Virus record (IMG/VR): IMGVR_UViG_3300031772_000071
Coordinates: 1 to 43,657 of that record
Origin: a virus
DNA length: 43,657 nucleotides
Direction: 5' to 3' (one strand)
Under the pieces are notes generated by a model, which was not told the DNA's origin, ran no database searches, and saw only the letters and a list, made by a program, of their open reading frames with translations. Shown one piece after another: positions 29,132-30,361 of this stretch (the stretch's first letter is position 1; every line of letters begins with the position of its first letter). A program made the translations under genes and the position numbers.

Positions 29132-29333
29132 AGAATGGCTTCTAATCCTTGGCGTTTTTGCCATAGCCGCAGCCCTCTGGTATCCGATTATCTATCCGAC
29201 GGCCGTGGTGCAGTCGATTGTAAACGACATGCGGGGTTCGACCGTGCATATTTGGGACGAGCATCAGAAAGCACCGTTAAAATACACGATCCCGAATATC
29301 AAAAAGATTGAAATGCCGCCGGAGGTGAAATGA
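29124..29333 (+). CDS. small membrane-anchored protein
   Basis: A 69-residue protein with one N-terminal span (residues 5-25, WLLILGVFAIAAALWYPIIY) and a basic polar C-terminus. It overlaps both neighbours (8 bases before, 4 after), so it is read in the same mRNA as the methyltransferase. Function unknown; an early membrane protein could act in exclusion. Confidence 0.6.
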   Translation: MFKEWLLILGVFAIAAALWYPIIYPTAVVQSIVNDMRGSTVHIWDEHQKAPLKYTIPNIKKIEMPPEVK

Positions 29334-30361
29334 TTCATGGCTCGTTATTTTCCGGTATAGGCGGTTTTGATCTCGCCGCTAAATGGGCAGGAATTGAAAC
29401 CATTTGGCAGGTTGAAAACGATTCGTATTGTCAAAAAGTTTTGAAAAAGAATTTTCCGAAAGCGAAAAGATATGGCGATATTAAAACAATTAAAATCGGC
29501 GACCTTGAACCAGTTGACATTATTTCCGGGGGATTCCCATGCCAGCCGTTTTCCTGCGCCGGGAAGCGCAGAGGCGCGGCGGATGACCGTTTCCTCTGGC
29601 CGGAAATGCTCCGAATCATTTCCGAAGTCCGGCCCACTTGGGTTATTGCGGAAAATGTGCCTGGAATCGTCAATATGGAACTCGACCAAGTGCTTGCTGA
29701 TTTGGAGAGTAAAGGCTACGAAACGCAGATGTTTATTGTTCCAGCTTGCGCCCTTGATGCCCCGCATATCAGACAACGAATTTGGATTATTGGGTACACC
29801 AAGAGCCCAGGAACGTCCAAGAAGTGCGGAATATGCAAAAGGTCGAAATCCAACTCCATCAGAACTAATAAAAAAAATGAATATGATTTTGAGGACGCCA
29901 AGATCATCGGATGCGGATCACAGCGGACCGAATCAACGGGATTCATCGGGGTTGCCGGGATTAACGATGCAGATTGCCATGCTCCGGACACCTCGATCAA
30001 ACGATTACAAGGGAGGGATAACGGGAGCGAAGGGATCAACCCGAAAACCATGCGATTACTTTCTTCCAGATCAGATTTCAATGATGCTTCCAACTCCGAA
30101 GGGGACAGTATCCGGACCGGATTATGCGAGAGCGAAGAGGAAAGGGAGCGGTGGGGACGATTTGATAACCAAGTTTGGCAAGAGCCATGGTTTGAAGTTG
30201 CAACCTGCCTTTGTGGAATGGATGATGGGGTTCCCAATCGGGTGGACAGACTTAAATCTCTCGGAAACGCAATCGTGCCCCAAATAGCGTTTCAATTTTT
30301 TAAAATGATCAAAGAGATTGAATCAAATAAGGATGTTTTGATTGACATCCAGCCGAATTGA
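29330..30361 (+). CDS. dcm: DNA cytosine-5 methyltransferase
   Basis: A 343-residue enzyme with the ordered motifs of the family: SLFSGIGGFDLAA (motif I, AdoMet site), GGFPCQPFS with catalytic Cys71 (motif IV), ENVPG near 108-112 (VI), IRQRIWIIG (VIII) and RLKSLGNAIVPQ near 305-316 (IX/X). It methylates cytosine, probably to protect phage DNA from host restriction or to regulate. The target-recognition region lies between motifs VIII and IX (about 155-290). Most of the gene also has a long open frame in +1 (29472-30287). No partner restriction enzyme is nearby, so it is a solitary methylase. Confidence 0.95.
   Translation: MIHGSLFSGIGGFDLAAKWAGIETIWQVENDSYCQKVLKKNFPKAKRYGDIKTIKIGDLEPVDIISGGFPCQPFSCAGKRRGAADDRFLWPEMLRIISEVRPTWVIAENVPGIVNMELDQVLADLESKGYETQMFIVPACALDAPHIRQRIWIIGYTKSPGTSKKCGICKRSKSNSIRTNKKNEYDFEDAKIIGCGSQRTESTGFIGVAGINDADCHAPDTSIKRLQGRDNGSEGINPKTMRLLSSRSDFNDASNSEGDSIRTGLCESEEERERWGRFDNQVWQEPWFEVATCLCGMDDGVPNRVDRLKSLGNAIVPQIAFQFFKMIKEIESNKDVLIDIQPN
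29472..30287 (+). CDS. overlapping +1-frame reading frame inside the methylase gene
   Basis: A 271-codon open frame wholly inside the methylase gene. Its translation has protein-like repeats: SGPLGLL, LLFQLAPLMPR, LRTPRSSDADH and LRTPRSNDYKGG and LPTPKGT, ending LQPAFVEWMMGFPIGWTDL. I recall phage proteins with the same series (MTVTSG-x-KC start, SGPLG, LPTPTASD repeats, EW-[ML]-MGFPIGWTDL end) often filed next to or as methylases. That end segment is exactly the +1 reading of the methylase GMDDGVPNRVDRLKSLGN motif. The ATG at 29472 has a weak site; an in-frame ATG at 29583 (MTVSSGRKC) is another possible start. Translation is not shown. Confidence 0.4.
   Translation: MAILKQLKSATLNQLTLFPGDSHASRFPAPGSAEARRMTVSSGRKCSESFPKSGPLGLLRKMCLESSIWNSTKCLLIWRVKATKRRCLLFQLAPLMPRISDNEFGLLGTPRAQERPRSAEYAKGRNPTPSELIKKMNMILRTPRSSDADHSGPNQRDSSGLPGLTMQIAMLRTPRSNDYKGGITGAKGSTRKPCDYFLPDQISMMLPTPKGTVSGPDYARAKRKGSGGDDLITKFGKSHGLKLQPAFVEWMMGFPIGWTDLNLSETQSCPK

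Follow-up and report, generated by a model that had tools for sequence, protein, structure and literature searches.

M.EcoHK31I (YGGCCR) was reportedly described by Lee et al. in 1995 as a C5-methyltransferase made of two polypeptides. The gene of its small subunit overlaps that of the large one in another reading frame, and M.EaeI is similar. In C5-methyltransferases generally, a large domain carries most of the motifs, including motif X, and a small domain comprises the recognition region and motif IX (PMC3404938). The C-terminal helix packs back onto the large domain (PMC5944983). In M.EcoHK31I the large subunit contains motifs I-VIII and X together with a predicted recognition domain, and the small subunit contains motif IX only (PMC3404938). 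M.AquI also has two subunits and represents a linear split, in which the small subunit consists of the distal recognition region followed by motifs IX and X (PMC3404938). Here we describe a phage locus in which a single DNA segment, read in two frames, very probably encodes both subunits of a C5-cytosine methyltransferase.

The methylase gene and its catalytic protein

The window, i.e., the whole stretch of DNA analysed (43,657 nt, positions 1-43,657 of virus record IMGVR_UViG_3300031772_000071), carries tailed-phage genes. The methylase locus is flanked by an HTH regulator upstream and a DnaB-like helicase downstream. Its frame 0 ORF (alpha, 29330-30361, 343 aa) encodes a C5-cytosine methyltransferase and follows a Shine-Dalgarno sequence, GGAGGT, read at 29321-29326; all features described here are on the + strand. 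Alpha matches PF00145 over its catalytic half only (residues 5-173, E=1.5e-47), TIGR00675 over residues 5-179 and phrog_363 over its whole length.

The catalytic domain (codons 1-159, 29330-29806) contains motifs I-VIII, with PCQ at residues 70-72 and ENV at 108-110. P70, C71, Q72, E108 and N109 are invariant among 51 alphas. AlphaFold2 predicts residues 1-159 with pLDDT mostly >90, and the best Foldseek match to the predicted alpha is M.HhaI (~160 residues, rmsd 1.4). A linker follows (codons 160-303, 29807-30238) that shares its DNA with the recognition region of the +1-frame protein and is delimited by pLDDT, substitution pattern and stop counts. Residues 162-279 are mostly disordered in the prediction, with pLDDT mostly <50. 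The C-terminal part (codons 304-339, 30239-30346) carries motif X in frame 0 (LKSLGNAIVP, 30251-30280) and two helices (304-313 and 317-339) predicted at high pLDDT. The predicted structure fits the large-domain architecture, with a catalytic domain, a disordered linker and motif X helices. Motif IX is missing from the alpha frame; EWMMGFPIGW occurs instead in the +1 frame, and alpha and beta taken together carry the motif between the recognition region and motif X.

The +1-frame protein

The first-pass annotation had claimed a second reading frame within the methylase gene, and it is indeed there: beta (29472-30287) starts with ATG, encodes 271 aa and lies in the +1 register within 29330-30361. 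Its boundaries are supported by the ORF itself, the phrog_1008 family match and selection tests. The reported sequence patterns are also present, with SGPLGLL, two LRTP units, one LPTP unit and additionally one LGTP unit, as is the end motif, EWMMGFPIGWTDL, encoded by the DNA of DDGVPNRVDRLKSLGN in the other frame. The suggestion that the protein belongs to a known phage group holds as well, since beta matches phrog_1008 (E=2.1e-32) with residues 8-265 over profile positions 31-285 of 329. Profile searches gave no Pfam or NCBIfam match for beta.

The N-terminal part of beta (residues 1-110, 29472-29801; QLTLFP...SGPLGLL...LFQLAPLMPR) lies over alpha motifs IV-VIII and is distinguished by synonymous-site conservation and a predicted beta-hairpin. 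The following variable region (29802-30191) contains the LGTP/LRTP/LPTP units and is the presumed target-recognition domain, based on +1 periodicity and single-frame relatives. Motif IX (LQPAFVEWMMGFPIGWTDL, 30198-30254) shows synonymous-site conservation, and its residues P245, E249, M252, G253 and P255 are invariant among 62 aligned sequences.

The structure of beta alone is predicted with low confidence (pLDDT 61, pTM 0.24), and a beta-hairpin at residues 76-94 is predicted with confidence. A fold search with this model found no match, and the beta profile matched solved structures weakly and at motif IX only, to a plant DRM-type methyltransferase (E = 1). A poor model of beta alone might be expected if the domain requires its partner. 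Beta appears to be the detached small domain of the methyltransferase, because it holds motif IX and the LPTP region and because a one-chain protein of phage Seagreen matches both profiles. As the model is poor and no fold match was found, this assignment is based on motif IX, on position and on the single-chain relatives.

The beta start is usually an ATG seven codons upstream of the conserved QLTLF. A Shine-Dalgarno sequence of at least 4 bases is found at 24 of 46 QLTLF-anchored beta starts, compared to 23% of other internal ATGs (P = 1e-5). The Shine-Dalgarno match of the beta start in the window is poor, so beta may be produced at a low level in this phage.

Relatives, spread and annotation

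Relatives occur in ~250 phage records. They were also found at no fewer than 150 viral and 281 bacterial or prophage loci, of which 80 in each set were kept. The phages infect Paenibacillus, Lacticaseibacillus, Rhizobium, Mycobacterium, Gordonia and Arthrobacter, and genomes with relatives include Bacillota, Bacteroidota, Acidobacteria, Pseudomonadota, Parcubacteria and others. The first-pass annotation had proposed searching for whether hits of the +1 protein overlap methylase genes, and in 196 loci motif IX is read in +1 register to the motif X of alpha. Annotation of these loci usually gives the methylase only. Diva gp50 and Lily gp63 of Paenibacillus larvae phages, annotated as 'g49/g62 internal gene', belong to the same +1 protein group; their records give the role only as 'DNA methyltransferase' or 'hypothetical protein'. 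Literature searches turned up no paper that discusses such dual coding of phage methylases.

Because many loci had been found via the +1 protein, a second search used the methylase alignment only. The standard +1 motif IX was present in 68 of the 77 distinct loci found with alpha, and the +1 frame was open from alpha codon 62 through this motif in 68/68. The other nine, classed by reading lanes and coordinates, comprise seven with a variant motif IX (e.g., EWLMGYPIGHTEL), one that is register-shifted (L277) and one with coverage of the N-half only (L289). Loci that keep the methylase while the +1 frame is broken had been named beforehand as evidence against the dual reading, and none of the 77 is clearly of this kind.

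Several bacterial genomes encode related genes. E. coli PT62 has two dual-frame methylase genes ~2 kb apart on one chromosome (L373:132-1118 and L371:2398-3135), and each of them has its motif IX in the +1 frame. The pair is close to phage terminase genes, and one of the genes has a 94% identical copy in a Salmonella phage. In E. coli PCP07014 (L372:2374-3138), a related methylase is annotated as a pseudogene, and stop codons interrupt the alpha and +1 frames close to one another. Searching plasmids with beta returned no E. coli relative. An uncultured Roseovarius (OX638333.1, L143-L147) carries five dual-frame loci spread over a single chromosome, all with the same match statistics, which suggests repeated related prophages.

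Actinophages show other arrangements. Seagreen_68 is a single chain that comprises the N-half, LPTP units and EWMMGWPAGW together with motif X, and it matches both the alpha-type and the phrog_1008 profiles. The recognition region shares its frame with motif IX in Seagreen_68 and Samy_50, and the C-half is a separate gene in BabyBack and Samy. Four actinophage loci (L126, L128, L131 and L132) consist of a methylase N-half gene and a C-half gene that is in another frame or immediately downstream. The annotated C-half gene of EricB is probably too short, since the +1 lane continues upstream of its annotated start. In Gordonia phage Ailee (L127:683-1081), an HNH endonuclease gene overlaps a methylase annotated as two pieces, which can be compared with described insertion elements (PMC9957025, PMC11855218). 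Related actinophage methylases are also treated in PMC9957025.

The actinophages bear on the alternative that ribosomes starting on alpha undergo programmed +1 frameshifting and yield a fused alpha-N/beta chain besides alpha. In several of them (EricB, Samy and Andrew), the N-half is followed by a C-half that is read, motif X included, in the +1 frame, and a +1 shift would complete the chain. We nevertheless regard frameshifting as improbable, since the window-type beta lane is already conserved across the catalytic region, before any point at which a shift would be of use, and has a conserved ATG before QLTLF with Shine-Dalgarno enrichment, and since the product of a shift would contain some domains twice or lack them. 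Slightly less probable again is that beta is real and has a function apart from methylation, for example as a regulator or an anti-restriction protein, with an incidental overlap. The beta fold is unrecognised and the N-terminal part lies outside the phrog_1008 match of the single-chain relative, but beta carries the motif IX that alpha is missing, homologous C-halves are fused to methylase N-halves as in Seagreen_68, and beta accompanies alpha in essentially all alpha-found loci.

Position and origin of motif IX

Motif IX overlaps motif X at the 35-base offset of the window in only 98 of the 196 loci. It lies farther upstream in others, by up to several hundred bases. The main exceptions to its +1 register are the actinophages and one repeat-bearing clade, and the two motifs share one frame in Mycobacterium phage Seagreen and Streptomyces phage Samy. 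The first-pass annotation had proposed that the +1 protein group arose by overprinting on methylase genes, with its end motif derived from motif X. An origin of EWMMGFPxGW as the +1 reading of motif X (RLKSLGN) is not supported, in view of the variable spacing and the one-frame relatives. The motif has the form and place of motif IX of C5-methyltransferases and is an ancestral methylase motif rather than a by-product of motif X. Overprinting is a better description of two other pieces, the N-terminal ~110 residues of beta, which lie on the catalytic motifs, and the alpha linker, which lies on the recognition region.

Selection on both frames

The +1 lane of the window is open for 280 codons, compared to a mean of 132 in shuffles that preserve the methylase protein and its codon usage, and it is as long in 1 of 200 shuffles. 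This open frame is beyond chance. Across 116 related genes, the +1 lane contains a mean of 6.3 stops versus 10.0 in methylase-preserving shuffles, and almost all of these genes have a longest +1 open run that surpasses the majority, or the whole, of their 200 shuffles. Stops in the +2 lane are nearer expectation (17.8 versus 19.6 in shuffles).

Synonymous sites of the methylase were assessed as the homozygosity of the third base in fourfold-degenerate alpha codons, where 0.25 is random. Among 106 loci, homozygosity is close to random ahead of beta (0.29 in codons 1-50), increases in the overlap (0.54 in codons 60-158), is highest over motif IX (0.76 in codons 290-308) and drops again past it (0.34 after codon 310; P = 2e-20). 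The profile is repeated in loci found with alpha only (0.33, 0.55, 0.77 and 0.34). Individual third bases are nearly or entirely fixed, e.g., GCT at Ala139 in 97 of 103 sequences and GTG at Val297 in 58 of 58.

Pairwise mismatch counts had earlier been guided by the beta protein alignment and were redone on nucleotide alignments without protein guidance, because beta-guided alignments favour the +1 frame. Upstream of beta, mismatch at alpha codon positions 1, 2 and 3 is.142/.083/.446 in 83 disjoint pairs. The corresponding values are.170/.092/.267 where beta overlaps the catalytic part,.349/.131/.128 across the recognition region and.078/.082/.230 past motif X. The recognition region shows the +1-frame pattern in 35 of 38 disjoint pairs. 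Alpha therefore dominates the catalytic part, with muted wobble, and beta alone shapes the recognition part. The alpha linker nonetheless contains 2 stops in 230 loci versus ~799 expected from beta-preserving shuffles. It seems to be selected only for carrying translation through to motif X, because stops are so rare even though beta alone shapes the sequence there.

Both frames are under purifying selection. The earlier claim that both are intact and conserved stands, as methylase synonymous sites are constrained only within beta; third-position variation blind to the +1 frame, which would have spoken against it, appeared neither at fourfold sites nor in mismatch by position. That only the methylase is real and its conserved motifs drag the +1 frame along is hardly credible: the +1 protein does sit on highly conserved motifs and annotation mostly gives the methylase alone, but this explanation is rejected by the fourfold-site test (conservation inside beta only), the mismatch test (+1 frame governing recognition-region substitutions) and a +1 lane that is open far past synonymous shuffles and in all 68 recognisable alpha-found loci.

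Repeats as a candidate phase switch

A single clade, whose relatives include goat rumen and yak jejunum genomes, carries simple repeats ~70-150 bases upstream of motif X, within the dual-coded region. The repeats are poly-G of 7-11, poly-C (C9), (AG)n and (AC)n (loci L011-L047 in part, L060, L096, L107, L109, L153, L185, L291-L298, L307, L309 and L311). In this clade, motif IX and motif X change register together. A script scan found 24 of 46 loci with a repeat out of register versus 1 of 217 without (P = 3e-20). In the tight set, the three registers are represented by 12, 9 and 14 loci, and the downstream register is nearly random across loci. This pattern is what phase variation predicts, and the repeats are a candidate switch of both subunits. 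Homopolymer assembly errors may contribute, but they would explain the AG and AC cases less well.

A proposed two-frame enzyme

The dual coding is conserved, the motifs are distributed over the two frames, and selection acts on both. We infer separate initiation, a heterodimer, a recognition role of beta, methylation and protection. Alpha, the large catalytic domain, should bind AdoMet and supply the catalytic cysteine of PCQ, and the motif X helix, tethered via the long disordered linker, would close the domain. Beta, whose translation most likely begins at an internal start of its own, would be the small domain with the variable target-recognition region and motif IX. Its N-terminal ~110 residues, overprinted on the alpha catalytic motifs, probably dock beta onto alpha. 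The two proteins are predicted to form a sequence-specific orphan methyltransferase, which probably guards the phage genome against host restriction.

More broadly, we lean towards a large, undescribed class of phage enzymes with two domains in two frames and a linker that is only kept open, in which a single tract of poly-G, poly-C, AG or AC repeats acts as a phase switch for both subunits at once in one clade, at least partly from rumen and gut samples. Most such phage 'DNA cytosine methyltransferase' annotations would cover half an enzyme, and cloning the annotated alpha by itself should yield a protein that is inactive or mis-specified. The repeats suggest that some phages may alter their own DNA methylation by phase variation. 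Among natural examples of genes that overlap over a long stretch on the same strand in dsDNA phages, the family is unusually clean. Its two frames clearly divide the labour into domain, linker and overprinted segment, and the dual reading is held by selection across hundreds of phages and prophages.

Comparison with known systems

The monomers M.HhaI and M.HaeIII share the catalytic fold of alpha residues 1-160. They differ from alpha/beta in having the recognition domain and motif IX in frame in a single chain. Among the phage proteins, Diva gp50 and Lily gp63 fall in the protein group of beta and have the same +1 register. The actinophage methylases Seagreen_68, BabyBack 83/82 and Samy 49/50 have a homologous N-half and an LPTP/motif IX C-half, as here, but motifs IX and X are in one frame and there is no superposed alpha linker up to motif X. 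As in M.AquI, the catalytic motifs I-VIII and motif IX are on different chains; unlike M.AquI, motif X remains on alpha.

The alpha and beta genes overlap in different frames (29330-30361 and 29472-30287), like those of M.EcoHK31I. M.EcoHK31I is a restriction-modification enzyme, whereas the phage alpha/beta looks orphan. Alpha carries motifs I-VIII and X without motif IX, and beta carries motif IX, in agreement with the description of M.EcoHK31I (PMC3404938). In M.EcoHK31I, however, the predicted recognition domain is in the large subunit (PMC3404938), whereas here the variable region evolves in beta; the alpha linker is unconstrained in sequence and predicted to be disordered. Alpha/beta can be viewed as an M.EcoHK31I-type variant, likened by description and not as a proven homologue. 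It departs from M.EcoHK31I in the assignment of the variable region to beta, in its location in phages and in its common occurrence.
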